Below, one piece after another: positions 8,049 to 13,266 of a stretch of DNA of 33,360 bases. Under the pieces are notes generated by a model. That model worked only from the letters and a program-made list of their open reading frames with translations, had not been told where the DNA came from and searched no databases. Position 1 is the stretch's first letter, and each line of letters begins with the position of its first letter. This DNA is from an uncultured Prochlorococcus sp. (GTDB lineage: Bacteria > Cyanobacteriota > Cyanobacteriia > PCC-6307 > Cyanobiaceae): assembly GCA_902539115.1 (NCBI GenBank), contig CACBHP010000011.1:1-33360 (forward strand), in the 5' to 3' direction. The position numbers were made by a program, and so were the translations under genes.

Positions 8049-9365
8049 TTAAGAATTATAAGAAATTATTGCTGAATAAAATCCATCACCAGGATAATCC
8101 AAGCTAGGTAAAATTTGCTTTTGGCTAACCAATTTTAAAGTTTTATTTTTTTTAATAAATCTTTCAATTAATAGATTATTTTCATCGGGACATATAGTGC
8201 AAGTTGAATAAACTAAAGTGCCATTTTTTTTCAAAAGAGGAAAAATACTCTCCAAAAGTTTTTCCTGTAATAAAGTTAAAGATTTTATTTTTTCTTTACT
8301 TAAAGACCATCTAGAATCTGGATTTCTCGAAAGAGTTCCAATGCCTGAGCACGGAGCATCTAATAAAATCTTATCAAAATAAGATATAAACTTAGGATTT
8401 AATTCAATCAAACTTGTAGCATCAGCCTTAAGGGTATTAACAGATTTCAAATTTAACCTTTCTAAATTTGATTGCAGTATTTTCAATCTTTTTGCTGATC
8501 TATCTAGTGCAATGATTTCAGCACTATCATTTGTTAATTCTGCTAGGTGGGTAGACTTACTTCCTGGAGCTGCACAAGCATCTAAAATCTTTTCACCTTC
8601 TTTTGGATTTAAGAGAGGTGCTATCCACTGAGAAGATCTATCTTGAATTGTCCAAAGTCCATCACTATATCCTGGTAAATTTTTTATGGATCTTGGATTA
8701 GATTTTAAAGTAATTCCGTTATGCAAATCTTTAATAATTTCAGCATCAATTTTATTTTCATGAAGTACTTTCAAAAATTTATCTAAATTAGTTTTTAATT
8801 GGTTAATTCTCAAATCAATTGATGGTTTTTTATTAAATGCCTTAATGATATTTTCACCCTCACTATTGCCGACCCATTTATAAATATCCTTTACAAGCCA
8901 TAATGGAAATGATTCAAGATATGAAATTCTTTCTTCTCTATCAGAAGATAATTCTGGAAAAATTTTTTTTTCTAATTTTCTTGATGCATTTCTCAATATC
9001 GCATTTACAGTTCCCGCTAAACCATTTAAATCTGTTTTTTTAGCTACTTCTACAGTGGTAGAAATAGCAGCAGGAAATGGAATTTTGTCCATTTTCAATA
9101 GTTGATATAAACCTATATGTAGAAGCCATCTTAACTTTGGAGGCTGCTTTTTATGAGTAATTTTTGATGTATGATCCGTCCAAAGATCAAGAAATTTTCT
9201 ATACCTTATGCATCCAAAAGATAATTCCGTTATGAAAGCTATATCGAGGGGATTAAATTGATAATTTTTTAAAACCTTTTCAAGAGCATGATCAGAAAAA
9301 TTACCAGAACTAACTCTTAATAAAATTTCCCAAGCTGCCTTTCTTTGTAAATATCCTATGCTCAA
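8049..9365 (-). CDS. rsmB: 16S rRNA (cytosine-967-C5)-methyltransferase RsmB
   Basis: RsmB makes m5C967 in 16S rRNA using SAM. Domain order: an N-terminal NusB-like RNA-binding domain (about residues 1-135), a linker domain, then a Rossmann methyltransferase core. Seen: SAM loop DACAAPGSKSTHL at 262-274, LDAPCSGIGT with Cys339, and YSTCTICPDEN with the catalytic Cys389, as expected for the two-cysteine m5C mechanism. The 438 residues fit the family. The start is TTG at 9365 (MSIGYLQRKAAW), which places the NusB domain correctly. It lies downstream of the photolyase-type gene block on the same strand, with about 50 bases to the nearest small frame. Confidence 0.93.
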   Translation of the reverse strand: MSIGYLQRKAAWEILLRVSSGNFSDHALEKVLKNYQFNPLDIAFITELSFGCIRYRKFLDLWTDHTSKITHKKQPPKLRWLLHIGLYQLLKMDKIPFPAAISTTVEVAKKTDLNGLAGTVNAILRNASRKLEKKIFPELSSDREERISYLESFPLWLVKDIYKWVGNSEGENIIKAFNKKPSIDLRINQLKTNLDKFLKVLHENKIDAEIIKDLHNGITLKSNPRSIKNLPGYSDGLWTIQDRSSQWIAPLLNPKEGEKILDACAAPGSKSTHLAELTNDSAEIIALDRSAKRLKILQSNLERLNLKSVNTLKADATSLIELNPKFISYFDKILLDAPCSGIGTLSRNPDSRWSLSKEKIKSLTLLQEKLLESIFPLLKKNGTLVYSTCTICPDENNLLIERFIKKNKTLKLVSQKQILPSLDYPGDGFYSAIISYNS

Positions 9366-9416
9366 AATATAGTTTATTTTAAAAGATAACTTTAATATAC
9401 AAAAAATTCAAAAAAT

Positions 9417-9561
9417 TTAAACTACTTTTTCAATTGCATTATTAAACCAAATAAAACCTAAGATAGAAATAAGTGACAGATTAAATCCTAAAAAATAGAA
9501 GATACTTAAAGAATGGATTCTTTCCCGAAAAAATATTTTATTTTTCTTCTTGATAATTCAT
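9417..9561 (-). pseudogene. possible frameshifted single-span membrane microprotein
   Basis: An ATG at 9561 opens MNYQEEK and stops at once. A frame shifted by one base continues for about 40 codons to a TAA at 9417-9419, encoding a basic start (FFRERIHS) and one clear hydrophobic span (LSIFYFLGFNLSLISILGF), then IWFNNAIEKVV. No ATG/GTG/TTG opens that frame. Removing one A from the five-A run just after the ATG segment would restore a 47-residue protein, so this may be a recent frameshift, a slippage-dependent gene, a sequence error, or chance. It sits between the 59-residue gene and rsmB on the same strand. The hydrophobic segment could be fortuitous in AT-rich DNA. Confidence 0.3.
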
Positions 9562-9580
9562 TAGTAAAATAAAAACTTAA

Positions 9581-9760
9581 TCAGGATTTCAAACGGCAAC
9601 CAATATTGATAGATCCTGCATCAATCATTCTGCCTAATTTAATTGCTATTGATTCCTCTAACCTTGTGAAATTAGATTGTTGAGTAGTGATCCAATCTAA
9701 TTCAGAAAAAGTGATAATACCTGTCGAATTACTTTTTAAAAAAAGTGTTCCAATTTCCAT
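9581..9760 (-). CDS. small conserved-looking hypothetical protein (59 aa)
   Basis: A complete frame from ATG at 9760 to TGA at 9581-9583 encodes 59 residues: MEIGTLFLKSNSTGIITFSE, a helical middle with LDWITTQQSNFTRLEESIAIKLGRM, and a tail ending INIGCRLKS. The amphipathic helix, the TRLEE-x-AIKLGRM-DAG-x-I-GCRL pattern and normal codon use for this genome suggest a real protein. I recall similar short proteins in marine picocyanobacteria but cannot name a family. No signal peptide or membrane span; one Cys near the C-terminus. It lies about 100 bases downstream of the photolyase-like gene on the same strand, in a stretch of about 500 bases otherwise without annotated genes. Confidence 0.65.
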   Translation of the reverse strand: MEIGTLFLKSNSTGIITFSELDWITTQQSNFTRLEESIAIKLGRMIDAGSINIGCRLKS

Positions 9761-9863
9761 TAGATAAATCTAATTTTCTAAGCCAACATCCGTAGTTAAT
9801 ATTTAGTCATAACATAATATTCTTTTAATTTTTCAAAGACAACTGTAGATTATTTTTCCTAAT

Positions 9864-11354
9864 TTATTGAATATCTCTTAAAAATTTGTCGGCCGTTTTT
9901 AAGTGATTATTTAATTTTTCCTCTGACATTTTATCAAGATTTCTCGTTAACATTGCCAGACGATATTGCTTTCTAAAAAAGCTTTCATTATCTTTAATAA
10001 ATTTCCAAAATAAGCCATCCCATATTTCACACCATGGGCCACTTTTAAAATCAGACATTTTTTTTACATAATTAGAGCTTGATATATATGGCTTTGTTGA
10101 AAAGATACCTCCATCACTAAACTGACTCATTCCGTAAACATTTGGGACCATAACCCAATCATAGGAATCAATAAACATTTCCATAAACCATTTATAAACA
10201 TGGTTGGGGTGAATTCTACATAGAAGCATAAAGTTGCCAACAATCATTAGCCGTTCAATATGATGACAATAACCAAATTTAATAATATTTTTTATAACAA
10301 CGTCTACTGGTTCAATTCCTGTATTTCCTTTATAAAAAGATTTTGGAATTGGCTTATCTTCAAAATTCCAAAAATTACTATTTCGCATTTTTGTTCCATA
10401 CTTCTTATATACAAGGCAAATAAATTCTCTCCATCCAATTATTTGACGAATAAAACCCTCTAAAGAGTTAATTGGAACATTATTATTTTTGGCATAAAGT
10501 AAGGCTTTATTTACTACTTCATTTGGCGTTAGTAAGCCACTGTTTAAAAGAGGAGAAAGTAAACTATGCCATAAAAAAGAATTTTCTTTAGAAATAGCAT
10601 CTTCATAATCTCCAAACAAGAAAAATCTATGTTTAAAAAAATCATTTAACCATTCATTTGCTTCATCAAAATTAGTTGGATATAAAAAGTTATTACTGTC
10701 TCCAATAAACTCAATATCAAAATTGGCTAGTGACCTTTCTGCATTAACTACAAATTTGTTTTTTTGTAATTTAGGTGTATCAGGTATGTTTATTTTTTTT
10801 GGTAATTTTTTTCTGTTCATTTCATCGAAACTCCATTTACCTCCTTCAGGTGTATCATCAGGATTAACTAATATCTTTTGGCTCTTTCTTTGGTTCTCAT
10901 AAAATCTTCCCATAAGAGGTTTTTTTGTATTTGATGCAAATAAATCTTTTAAATCTTCACTGCTCATAAACATAGGAGAAGGCAAAATATTTAAAGCTAA
11001 ATTATTACTTTCAACAAAATTATTAACCCTCTTCATTATTAAAAAATCATGAGGGTCAATGAGATTTATTTTCTGATATTTATCCTTAATAAATTCCAAT
11101 AAGTAGTCGACTGTAGAAATATTATTCTTGTTTTCGATATATAAAACTTTAAAGCCTGATATTTCTAAATAATTTTTATAAGCGAGCATAGATGCTCTAT
11201 GAAAAACTAATTTGTTTTTATGGTTAATTAATTTATAAAATTTATCATTTCCAAAAAATAATGAGTCTTCCAAAATTAAAATGTCACAATTTATTTTTAA
11301 GATTGGACTTTCTCGAAAAAGTTGATTTGGGAAAATAATTGATACTTGTTTCAT
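9864..11354 (-). CDS. cryptochrome/photolyase-related protein (FeS-BCP / prokaryotic (6-4) photolyase family)
   Basis: This 496-residue protein belongs to the deoxyribodipyrimidine photolyase-related family (FeS-BCP, including Agrobacterium PhrB and CryB). It is expected to bind FAD and a lumazine-type antenna and to repair (6-4) photoproducts or act as a blue-light sensor. Seen: an N-terminal Rossmann domain starting [10 protein letters not shown] with HRASMLAY, and the helical FAD domain with [12 protein letters not shown] (300-311), [17 protein letters not shown] (362-378) and [13 protein letters not shown] (404-416). Odd: at the Fe-S ligand sites the usual Cys after TGM is replaced (TGIEPVD, 345-351), and the usual CxxC...C stretch after MSDF is reduced to [14 protein letters not shown], with only one Cys. 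The Fe4S4 cluster is therefore probably absent. Its ATG overlaps the stop of the DUF2256 gene (ATGA). Confidence 0.88.
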
Positions 11355-11482
11355 CTTTGCGACTTCCTATTACTGCATCTTTTTGAACAGTAGATAACTT
11401 CATCCCAACAGTTTTTCCATTTTTTTCGCCACAAAAAAGGTCGATTACAAACAGGACAAGTTTTTGTAGAAAGATTTTTCAA
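11351..11482 (-). CDS. DUF2256 zinc-ribbon microprotein (43 aa)
   Basis: A short frame from TTG at 11482 to TGA at 11351-11353 encodes 43 residues. The core [20 protein letters not shown] (9-28) followed by VIYCSKRC (29-36) is the hallmark of DUF2256: CxxC, the W-R-K-K-W motif, an intervening Cys, then CxxxC. It is probably a zinc-binding, basic, nucleic-acid-like microprotein; function unknown. An in-frame TAA lies just upstream of the TTG, so the start cannot be much earlier. The stop overlaps the photolyase-like ATG as ATGA, a classic translational-coupling arrangement. The upstream TIGR03643 gene ends 3 bases before. DUF2256 commonly sits beside photolyase-related genes in other bacteria (family knowledge). 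Confidence 0.9.
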
Positions 11483-11485
11483 AAT

Positions 11486-11722
11486 TTATAATTTTCTTTT
11501 ATGAGTAGATTTAAATCTAGTTGAATCTTTAAGCGCCATATGTTTTGTATTTCTTCCCGAAACTCTCTTTCTCCAGACTTTGAAGGATTTAGGTTTCAAA
11601 TTTTGACGCATAATTTTTATTGCATCTTCCTCTTTCAAACCAAATTGATACTCAATGGCTTCAAAGGGTGTTCTATCTTCCCAACACATTTCTATTATTC
11701 TGTCTATATCGATATTTTCCAT
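11486..11722 (-). CDS. TIGR03643/DUF2805 family protein
   Basis: This 78-residue, basic, soluble protein has the signature RIIEMCWEDRTPFEAIEYQF (8-27), then LKEEDAIKIMRQNL and the SFKVWRKRVSGRNTKH stretch (46-61), which I recognise as the TIGR03643/DUF2805 family. The N-terminal half looks like a small helix-turn-helix fold of the kind that follows a 'WEDRTPF' helix, and the C-terminus is strongly basic, so nucleic-acid binding is plausible but unproven. It starts 2 bases after the DUF393 stop and ends 3 bases before the DUF2256 start, placing it inside a four-gene operon with the photolyase-like gene, where this family is often found. Confidence 0.88.
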   Translation of the reverse strand: MENIDIDRIIEMCWEDRTPFEAIEYQFGLKEEDAIKIMRQNLKPKSFKVWRKRVSGRNTKHMALKDSTRFKSTHKRKL

Positions 11723-11724
11723 AT

Positions 11725-12117
11725 TTATTGTTCACATTGGGAGGTACAAAGTTTTTCAATATCGGATCTTCCTGTAATTTGAAGTCTATATTTTGCCCAA
11801 TATCTGTATACCAGTCTTAATATGGGTGTAAAAAATTTAATCTTCAAGGGATAATAAACCCAACCTAGACCAACTAATTCATAAGAATACGCAAGTACAT
11901 CTAGTCCCCTAATAATTTCATCATTTTCCATAATCCCATGGAGGTTTGACATAGCTTCTGAATATGAGATGTTATTAAAAAGACTTTGATCATAATCCTT
12001 ACTATTAATATCTATAAATAAAATTTGATTTGAAATATCTCTCTTTTTCAGAAAATTTGTTTCTCTCAAACAAAGTGGACAACCACCATCGAATAAAAAG
12101 GTTAATTTATTTTTCAT
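11725..12117 (-). CDS. DCC-family (DUF393) thiol-disulfide oxidoreductase-like protein
   Basis: The frame encodes 130 residues from ATG at 12117 (a TTG at 12129 would add four). Near the N-terminus FLFDGGCPLCLRETNFLKKRD carries the D-G-x-C-P-x-C motif of the DUF393/DCC family, a thioredoxin-like fold with a CxxC pair. The later YSYELVGLGWVYYPL and RYWAKYR patches match the family's hydrophobic C-terminal half. Reaction and substrate are unknown. It is the first gene of the tightly packed minus-strand operon leading to the photolyase-like protein, with 2 bases to the next gene. About 180 bases of upstream spacer separate it from the 67-residue gene, giving room for its own promoter. Confidence 0.85.
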   Translation of the reverse strand: MKNKLTFLFDGGCPLCLRETNFLKKRDISNQILFIDINSKDYDQSLFNNISYSEAMSNLHGIMENDEIIRGLDVLAYSYELVGLGWVYYPLKIKFFTPILRLVYRYWAKYRLQITGRSDIEKLCTSQCEQ

Positions 12118-12248
12118 TTTTTTATCCAAATATAGAAATTAAATAACTTTTTTGTGGGATAAAAAAAATTTTTTACAATACAAGCTTTATAAAGCCTTAA
12201 TAATTGCCAGTTCTAATTTAGTGAAATTACATTATCTTATAGATTAAT

Positions 12249-12280
12249 AAGCCATTGATTAAGGGATACATCAATGGTTT
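12249..12280. terminator. strong inverted repeat, possible terminator
   Basis: CCATTGAT (12252-12259) and ATCAATGG (12270-12277) form a perfect 8-bp stem with a 10-base loop; three flanking pairs (one G-U) extend it to 11. It lies just downstream of the 67-residue gene (stop at 12294) and upstream of the DUF393 operon. No clean U-tract follows on the minus strand, so it could end that transcript weakly, stabilise its 3' end, or be an operator. Confidence 0.4.
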
Positions 12281-12293
12281 AAAATATTTATTA

Positions 12294-12497
12294 TCAGTCA
12301 TCTAAAAGATGAACTCCTTCTCCGACGTCAGGAATAAATTTACAATATTTTTCAAAAACAAGTCCAACACCTCTCATTTTTTCTCCTAATTCATCGTTAA
12401 ATTTATTCCATTCGTCTGATTCACGTTCAGGTAAATCCCACCCTTGTTTTTCTACCATACTTGTTATTACTGTATAGTCCCATTCTATGTATGCCAT
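12294..12497 (-). CDS. hypothetical acidic protein (67 aa)
   Basis: A clean frame from ATG to TGA encodes an acidic, soluble 67-residue protein rich in Trp and Glu (MAYIEWDYTVITSMVEKQGW..., ending VGEGVHLLDD). No family is recognised. There is no signal peptide, membrane span or cysteine pair; one Cys sits near residue 52. The frame is flanked by its own spacer on both sides (97 bases to divergent trmH, 176 bases to the DUF393 ATG) and by an inverted repeat just past its stop, which suggests a monocistronic gene. Codon use looks like that of its neighbours. It is probably a picocyanobacterium-restricted small protein. Confidence 0.65.
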   Translation of the reverse strand: MAYIEWDYTVITSMVEKQGWDLPERESDEWNKFNDELGEKMRGVGLVFEKYCKFIPDVGEGVHLLDD

Positions 12498-12564
12498 TGA
12501 GTTAATTCAAACTACCAAAATATTATAAACCAAGAGATTTAATAGGTAATAAATATTTTTTGAA

Positions 12565-12570
12565 TATAAT
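12565..12570 (+). promoter_or_regulatory. -10 box for trmH
   Basis: A perfect TATAAT lies 25 bases before the trmH ATG; transcription would start near 12577, giving a leader of about 18 bases. No convincing -35 element is seen, as is usual in this AT-rich lineage. Confidence 0.45.
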
Positions 12571-12594
12571 TTGAAAAGTGTGAAAAAATTATAA

Positions 12595-13266
12595 ATGTCA
12601 ATTTTGCCAAGAAGATTTGAAAGAATCAAAAGTGTTTTAGATTGCAGAATGAAAAACTTGACTGTTTTAGTTGAGGATGTCAATAAACCCCATAATCTAT
12701 CCGCGATATTAAGGACATGTGATGCAGCAGGAGTTTTCGAAGCAAATTTTATTAGCAAAACGAATGCTGTTAAGACTTTTAATAGTACTGCTCAAGGAAG
12801 TCAAAAATGGGTAAAACTAAATAATCATGGAAACACTATCGCTGCAATAACTGATTTAAAGAATAGGGGTTTTAAATTATATGGAACGACTCTTAATAGT
12901 GAATCAGTGGATTATAGAAATTTTGATTATTCTCAAAATACATGTTTTGTTTTAGGAGCAGAAAAATGGGGACTAAGTAATGAACTTATATCAATGGTTG
13001 ATCAATCAATTTTTATACCTATGAGAGGTATGGTTCAATCCCTGAATGTTTCAGTTGCTGCTTCCATATTATTATTTGAAGCTATTCGCCAAAGAAAAAA
13101 TAAAGGTATATTGCCCGCTAATGGAGAAGGTTTAAATATAGATGAATATCAAAAAACACTTTTTGAATGGTGTTACCCAGAATTAGCTGCAGTGTATAAA
13201 AAATTAGCTAAAGAATATCCAAAATTGAATGATCAAGGAGAACTTGATCATATTACAGATAACTAA
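12595..13266 (+). CDS. trmH: tRNA (guanosine-18-2'-O)-methyltransferase TrmH
   Basis: This SPOUT-class methyltransferase makes Gm18 in the D-loop of tRNAs using SAM. Seen in order over 223 residues: the TrmH start MSILPRRFERIKSVLDCRM, motif 1 NKPHNLSAILRTCDAAGV (25-42), motif 2 FVLGAEKWGLSNEL, and motif 3 IFIPMRGMVQSLNVSVAASI, which forms the trefoil knot. The C-terminal extension after the knot (FEWCYPELAAVYKKL) is also typical of TrmH and separates it from the shorter TrmL. The gene is divergent from the 67-residue gene and convergent with the ABC permease gene 2 bases away. Confidence 0.92.
   Translation: MSILPRRFERIKSVLDCRMKNLTVLVEDVNKPHNLSAILRTCDAAGVFEANFISKTNAVKTFNSTAQGSQKWVKLNNHGNTIAAITDLKNRGFKLYGTTLNSESVDYRNFDYSQNTCFVLGAEKWGLSNELISMVDQSIFIPMRGMVQSLNVSVAASILLFEAIRQRKNKGILPANGEGLNIDEYQKTLFEWCYPELAAVYKKLAKEYPKLNDQGELDHITDN

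Follow-up and report, generated by a model that had tools for sequence, protein, structure and literature searches.

Introduction

A (6-4) photolyase without an iron-sulfur (Fe-S) cluster has been reported for Prochlorococcus and was designated Phr2 or PromaPL; the passages describing it name no small partner genes (PMC9426592, PMC9178010). In the same genus, a UV-induced photolyase operon of strain MED4 was described, which consists of the two genes mutT-phrB and thus combines a different photolyase with a nudix partner (passages of PMC2955971). In Pseudomonas and Vibrio, passages on the LitR/MerR light regulons describe blue-light-induced clusters that contain photolyase, CryB, FolE and UfaM genes, further SDR, folate and lipid genes, and open reading frames (ORFs) of unknown function (PMC9758184, PMC5241685, PMC11417400). 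This paper deals with a four-gene operon located at positions 9864-12117 on the minus strand of a window of 33,360 nucleotides, the whole stretch of DNA that was analysed, from an uncultured Prochlorococcus sp. (contig CACBHP010000011.1). It combines a photolyase of the prokaryotic (6-4) class with genes for two small proteins of the families DUF2256 and DUF2805 and for a DCC1-like protein.

Photolyases have been treated as one-protein repair machines. With a probability of about one half, the Fe-S-free (6-4) photolyase and the two small basic proteins of this operon participate in one light-dependent process of repair or photoprotection. DUF2256 would be a zinc-finger accessory of photolyase/cryptochrome enzymes, which binds either nucleic acid or the enzyme and aids its action in the cell, and DUF2805, from the same set of light-response genes, would bind nucleic acid as a protein of the helix-turn-helix (HTH) type. 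The tie between DUF2256 and photolyases is based on genome statistics and on repeated adjacency, and from these we infer the mechanism. DUF2256 may be an overlooked partner of the light-driven photolyase/cryptochrome enzymes, and this candidate role in vivo can readily be put to the test; if it is true, the function of two orphan families, DUF2256 and DUF2805, would become approachable for the first time. In passages from the open-licence literature, no description of a link of either family to photolyases was found. The photolyase itself is already known; a dependence of DUF2256 on photolyases and a place of DUF2805 in the same islands would be new as far as could be found in that literature.

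The Operon and Its Photolyase

The photolyase gene (9864-11354) codes for a protein of 496 amino acids with a DPRP (PhrB-like) N-terminal domain (PF04244, E 8.5e-42) and a photolyase FAD domain (PF03441, E 7e-8), both of which are also present in Phr2/PromaPL. Its alignment with solved structures of prokaryotic (6-4) photolyases begins at about residue 44 and extends to the C-terminal part. Among the structure matches were 9hnk (7e-69) and PhrB (4dja, 4e-67), the eight best of nine being named for this class, and the motif HHIERLM corresponds to HHIQRLM in chain 9hnk. The 9hnk cysteines in ACVADT, SDYCKGC and DACPF, which we take to be the [4Fe-4S] ligands, are replaced in the window photolyase by P, K, P and a gap. 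Judged from this alignment, the enzyme lacks the four cysteine ligands, like Phr2/PromaPL, so that it is predicted not to be an FeS-BCP. Its class and the missing cysteines make it a probable orthologue of Phr2/PromaPL, and repair of 6-4 photoproducts is predicted from its class. A preliminary description of this DNA had proposed an undescribed module; the photolyase, at least, fits an enzyme already reported. The phr2 gene of Synechococcus RS9916 has been reported 3' of a uvrC-type gene, an arrangement different from that of the operon described here.

Upstream of the photolyase gene, the operon contains, in order of translation, the genes for the DCC1-like protein (11725-12117), DUF2805 (11486-11722) and DUF2256 (11351-11482), all on the minus strand. 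The first two genes are separated by 2 nucleotides (11723-11724) and the next two by 3 nucleotides (11483-11485), and DUF2256 overlaps the photolyase gene by the 4 nucleotides ATGA (11351-11354). The ORF coordinates thereby bear out the close spacing on one strand that had been noted earlier. To judge from this spacing, translational coupling, a common promoter and cotranscription are probable; a scan for consensus promoters gave no excess over shuffled sequences (17 sites versus a mean of 20.5), and neither did the scan for terminators. The ratio dN/dS (Nei-Gojobori) was 0.14 for the DCC1-like gene, 0.048 for DUF2805, 0.135 for DUF2256 and 0.13 for the photolyase. It was determined for the window and 23 of the 24 Prochlorococcus-type loci L067-L090, for which we use our own label "high-light-type" (L076 was omitted, and 23 sequences were used for the photolyase). 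All four genes are under purifying selection, and values of 0.05-0.14 among these loci show that the genes of 43 and 78 residues are real.

Association of DUF2256 with Photolyases

Surveys covered 248 genomes of Pseudomonadota, 146 of Cyanobacteriota and 198 of Bacteroidota. One contaminated genome (G146) had been dropped from the Pseudomonadota, since its DUF2256 and DUF2805 matches share a contig whose gene order is that of Prochlorococcus. This 3.4-kb contig (L071), filed under a Rhodobacteraceae metagenome-assembled genome (MAG), shows the four-gene order with 99% identity in DUF2805 and is likely a binning contaminant. All DUF2256-containing genomes of the Pseudomonadota (67/67, PF00875) and of the Cyanobacteriota (65/65) contain a photolyase-family gene. 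In the Bacteroidota, a PF03441 gene is present in 62 of 62 genomes with a strong DUF2256 match, or in 63 of 64 when the weak matches of G408 and G479 are included. Over the three phyla, all 194 strong matches belong to genomes bearing a photolyase or cryptochrome (194/194). The control genomes of Caulobacter and Synechococcus elongatus gave matches for DUF2256 as well as DPRP. For the Pseudomonadota, DUF2256 and the DPRP domain were found together in 58 genomes, DUF2256 alone in 9, DPRP alone in 10 and neither in 171 (one-sided Fisher p 3e-36, uncorrected for phylogeny), and the odds ratio was still 44 among the 146 PF00875-bearing genomes.

The two genes are also repeatedly linked. Of the 58 Pseudomonadota genomes containing both, 33 have DUF2256 and DPRP no more than 6 kb apart, with DUF2256 on either side and on either strand; at 3 of 30 further loci, DUF2256 is 1 to 26 nucleotides away from another, non-DPRP photolyase-family gene. 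This gives a photolyase/cryptochrome gene near DUF2256 in 36 of 67 genomes, with four genomes at a distance of 7.5 to 12.6 kb counted as misses. In the Bacteroidota, a photolyase-family ORF was identified in the flank of DUF2256 at 44 of 62 loci, and at 33 of them no more than 50 nucleotides separate the two. The flank covered was 1.5 kb at 24 loci and up to 4 kb at the remaining 38; L474, with an internal stop in DUF2256 and a photolyase-family ORF nearby, was counted as a miss, and L274 was not counted as a neighbour. By our own estimate, in a genome of 4 Mb with some three photolyase-family genes, the chance of finding one in a stretch of 8 kb is well under 1%. The linkage spans several gene orders and different photolyase classes, and this variation in order and partner class argues against the mere inheritance of one ancestral cluster. 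It is also present on plasmids: photolyase-DUF2256-DUF2805 is located beside genes of the cyclopropane-fatty-acid-synthase and lipocalin types in Acinetobacter schindleri, DUF2256-photolyase-Cho was found in Cupriavidus, DUF2256 adjoins a photolyase in Sphingomonas and Salinivibrio, and one SDR gene separates the two in Vibrio parahaemolyticus. The small partners had been proposed to recur next to this photolyase class, and the neighbourhood survey suggested as a check found them beside photolyases far beyond the picocyanobacteria, so that the refuting outcome named with that proposal, a restriction to picocyanobacteria, did not occur; DUF2256, however, is not specific to the DPRP class.

Weighing of the Association

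A number of observations weigh against a common process. The most serious weakness is that both gene sets may be driven by a life in the light. DPRP itself is confined to PF00875-bearing genomes in the Pseudomonadota (68/68), and Bacteroidota genomes with DUF2256 contain a mean of 2.69 PF03441 genes (62 genomes) compared to 1.11 in the 57 other PF03441-bearing ones. Co-occurrence alone thus shows no functional tie, and its counts are uncorrected for phylogeny and were made without a control family. Of the genomes with DUF2256, 9 of 67 in the Pseudomonadota and 26 of 65 in the Cyanobacteriota lack DPRP; of those with PF00875, 79 of 146 and 9 of 74, respectively, lack DUF2256. None of the 30 best-scoring of the 65 cyanobacterial DUF2256 loci, some of which end at contig ends, has a photolyase-family ORF within 1.5 kb. 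Plasmids of Erwinia, Azospirillum, Agrobacterium, Salipiger, Spirosoma and Pantoea carry DUF2256 with no annotated photolyase nearby, in gene tables that are incomplete. In the fetched viral stretches, 32 of 34 DUF2256 loci and 78 of 79 DUF2805 loci (the exception being L429) contain no photolyase-family ORF; neither family, therefore, needs the adjoining gene. For DUF2805, 11 of the 27 cyanobacterial genomes that contain it have no DPRP match, and passages of a marine co-abundance metagenome study grouped it with translation-linked domains (PMC3597751). The fold matches of both small proteins are weak, all with Z below 5.

Photolyases of this class act as purified enzymes without such partners, which counts against a common process as well. 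If DUF2256 were a general accessory factor, for example a zinc finger for loading, maturation or targeting, its dispensability for the purified enzymes would explain why it has been overlooked. This wider proposal, with DUF2805 as a second light-response factor exploited by phages, is possible but doubtful.

Among the alternatives, the one which survives best is that the small genes only share a light or UV stress response with the photolyases and act on membrane, RNA or redox functions, so that the clustering would reflect coregulation alone. The neighbourhoods of 56 DUF2805 loci (L091-L146) are in agreement with it, since they mix classical photolyase-type genes (29 loci) and further photolyase relatives with genes for SDR (25), flavin reductase (15), TspO (13), glutathione peroxidase (12), ABC1 kinase (11) and GTP cyclohydrolase I (11), and the same applies to the lipid genes on the Acinetobacter plasmid and to the correlation of DUF2805 with translation-linked domains. 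The mixed content of the LitR/MerR regulons points in the same direction, and because the neighbours of DUF2805 resemble these sets, a light or photo-oxidative response is their natural setting. The passages on the LitR/MerR clusters, however, name neither DUF2256 nor DUF2805, and no MerR-type regulator, the mark of LitR/CarH clusters, was identified by Pfam and NCBIfam among the eight genes of 8049-13266; the window operon contains neither LitR nor MerR. In contrast to what coregulation alone would explain, DUF2256 often directly adjoins the photolyase-family gene, as in the 33 of 62 Bacteroidota loci where 50 nucleotides or fewer lie between them, in both orders and with several classes. We therefore consider mere coregulation possible but doubtful.

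DUF2805

The DUF2805 protein consists of 78 amino acids with an isoelectric point of 9.9 and a net charge of +7. It was assigned by TIGR03643 (E 2.4e-36; 123.7 bits versus a cut-off of 66.55) and PF10985 (E 3.1e-32; 111.2 versus 22.5 bits). In an AlphaFold2 model (pLDDT 79.9), helices at residues 3-15, 20-27, 31-41 and 44-54 are followed by a basic tail. Foldseek returned many HTH domains, including those of LsrR, SorC and sigma region 4, but with E values of 1.8 and above none was significant. In the VIA list, chains of the spliceosome and the mitoribosome, which are unrelated, came first (Z 4.1 to 4.3). The HTH assignment is thus drawn mainly from the helix pattern, and the weakly matched model suggests a basic helix-turn-helix protein.

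Among 23 Pseudomonadota genomes containing DUF2805, DPRP was identified in 22, DUF2256 in 21 and PF00875 in all 23. A photolyase-family gene is located within 4 kb of DUF2805 at 29 of 47 non-cyanobacterial loci, a sample picked for similarity to the query, and DUF2256 is present at 20 of these 47. Within flanks of 1.5 kb, a photolyase was found beside DUF2805 at 6 of 22 Pseudomonadota loci (the fragment in G351 was left out of the 23) and at 5 of 27 cyanobacterial loci. DUF2805 is thus tied to photolyases more loosely than DUF2256. In some annotated plasmid records, it likewise has no annotated photolyase nearby. The DUF2805-containing cyanobacterial genomes without DPRP are G005, G022, G042, G061, G065, G069, G071, G100, G102, G122 and G124. 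In G047 (L017), only a photolyase remnant, covering profile positions 1-48, adjoins DUF2805. A DUF2805 tree of 164 rows gave no transfer history, since its 74 columns were too few to resolve the picocyanobacterial branches.

The predicted HTH fold of DUF2805, together with the putative zinc finger of DUF2256, would also be compatible with two dedicated transcription regulators of the adjoining photolyase genes, and the convergent DUF2256/DUF2805 pair of Acinetobacter and the divergent one of Pseudoalteromonas favour this idea. We regard it as improbable, as no sensor domain is present, both small genes point in the same direction as the photolyase gene, in L067-L090 as well as in the window, and DUF2805 is found in cyanobacteria lacking DPRP. 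The MED4 counterpart of the photolyase is presumably PMM0425, by elimination among the named MED4 photolyase relatives; the passages on PMM0425 report no clear diel pattern (PMC3441193), which likewise argues against regulators.

DUF2256

The DUF2256 gene starts with TTG and codes for 43 amino acids with a net charge of +10. The protein was assigned by PF10013 (E 2.3e-18; 66.5 bits versus a cut-off of 25), and its cysteines C9, C12, C32 and C36 are invariant in an alignment of 27 sequences. The model (pLDDT 83.9) consists of two short strands and a helix. The best fold match was YacG in the gyrase complex (4tma_J; Foldseek E 0.12, probability 0.94, TMq 0.54), with 27% identity over 37 columns and a VIA Z of 3.3 at a root-mean-square deviation of 2.5 over 36 residues. 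VIA also matched the model to a finger of the FCS type (Z 3.6) and, with Z 3.2 and lower, to ribosomal or pre-ribosomal fingers. The YacG and FCS matches agree with a passage of PMC4047054 that places DUF2256 in the TRASH clan. With the YacG and FCS fingers of this clan, DUF2256 has the paired cysteines and a Y/F-C-S motif in common, and its predicted fold may resemble theirs, but it differs from YacG by its strongly basic WRKKW region and by its low score with the YacG profile. A basic zinc finger is suggested by this weakly matched model, and zinc would be bound by the conserved cysteines.

That DUF2256 is instead a YacG-like finger acting on topoisomerase or replication during UV stress, not on photolyase, is very improbable: apart from the fold match, weak Pfam YacG matches (E 0.39 with the protein of the window and 0.079 with that of L115) point to it, but the Foldseek E of 0.12 is weak, the VIA Z is tied with those of the FCS and ribosomal fingers, and the YacG profile (PF03884) gave 10.9 bits, under the cut-off of 25.5.

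Gene Order in Cyanobacteria and the DCC1-Like Gene

From 581 DUF2805 matches, the loci of the 80 best were fetched. The high-light-type loci among them all show the four families in one and the same order (24/24), so that the arrangement is not due to chance; of these loci, L071 is the contig filed under a Rhodobacteraceae MAG, L075 ends inside the photolyase and L076 has split DCC and photolyase ORFs. The order is also kept in a further genome of the genus (G104, L027). DUF2805-DUF2256-photolyase without DCC was found in L098 and L132, both named Prochlorococcus, and in L026/G134 of the same family. L132 has a fragmented photolyase next to intact frames of DUF2805 and DUF2256, and at both L098 and L132 an ORF judged by eye to be peroxiredoxin-like is located 3' of the photolyase. 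Four picocyanobacterial loci (L024, L092, L097, L113) contain DUF2805 with neither DUF2256 nor photolyase in the fetched stretch, and in G136 the genes for DUF2805, DUF2256 and DPRP are 88, 279 and 367 kb apart. A conserved four-gene module was rejected for these reasons, the DCC gene being local and triads or lone DUF2805 genes occurring elsewhere; the four genes, which the preliminary description had taken as a single retained module, were seen together in only one Prochlorococcus lineage.

Among the 146 Cyanobacteriota genomes, DUF2805 was identified in 27, DPRP in 42, DUF2256 in 65 and PF00875 in 74. At class level, DUF2256 is present in 62 of 63 PF00875-bearing genomes, the exception being G113, and by coordinates it adjoins DPRP only in G000, G104 and G134. 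In two genomes of the same family, G111 and G138 (99% complete), DUF2256, DUF2805, DPRP and PF00875 are all missing. This is in line with passages of PMC9426592, in which the whole photolyase family is reported absent from the low-light clades LLII to LLV, to which both genomes may belong.

The DCC1-like protein (DUF393) of 130 amino acids passes the curated cut-off of PF04134 (84.3 versus 27.8 bits, E 1.8e-23). Its start was placed at the ATG at 12117, with a TTG at 12129 as a possible alternative. By its profile and its CxxC motif (DGGCPLC), it is predicted to be of the thiol-disulfide oxidoreductase type; no solved structure matched at an E limit of 1. Since it adjoins the other genes only in the high-light-type Prochlorococcus loci, it is a lineage-specific addition as the first gene of the operon, and it would be a thiol-disulfide-type protein that joined only in this lineage. 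Guarding of an Fe-S cluster by DCC was rejected as the main idea, because the photolyase lacks the Fe-S cysteines.

Viral Copies

DUF2805/TIGR03643 was identified on 79 IMG/VR contigs (L368-L446), some of them with phage genes, such as a gp23-type capsid gene (L369) and, in others, genes for GroEL, DNA ligase or thymidylate synthase; the family is carried by large phages. A Flavodoxin_2-like gene is present in 36 of these 79 stretches, in 19 of them within 150 bp on the same strand. For DUF2256, the viral loci L338-L361 and L363 had no photolyase-family ORF in the fetched flanks. Named phages gave no match for DUF2256 (E limit 1) or DUF2805 (E limit 0.01), and PHROG contained no family for either (E 0.001). 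At L347 and L363, a short DUF2256 ORF is located among genes that by eye are of the lambda early-region type, in L347 on the strand opposite to its neighbours, like a moron gene.

Neighbouring Genes

Long DUF2256-containing ORFs, which might be gene fusions, were listed mostly from high-GC genomes, and the two overlapping ORFs of L274 were taken as chance frames; we claim no fusion from them. The operon of the window is flanked by rsmB, a gene for a TrmH-type methyltransferase and two small ORFs without a family in the Pfam and NCBIfam scan. An ORF of 59 residues, for which no Pfam family was matched, is located 3' of the photolyase at 9581-9760 on the minus strand. By eye, it resembles an ORF (9647-9901) that adjoins DUF2805 in L092, a locus from a Synechococcus MAG.

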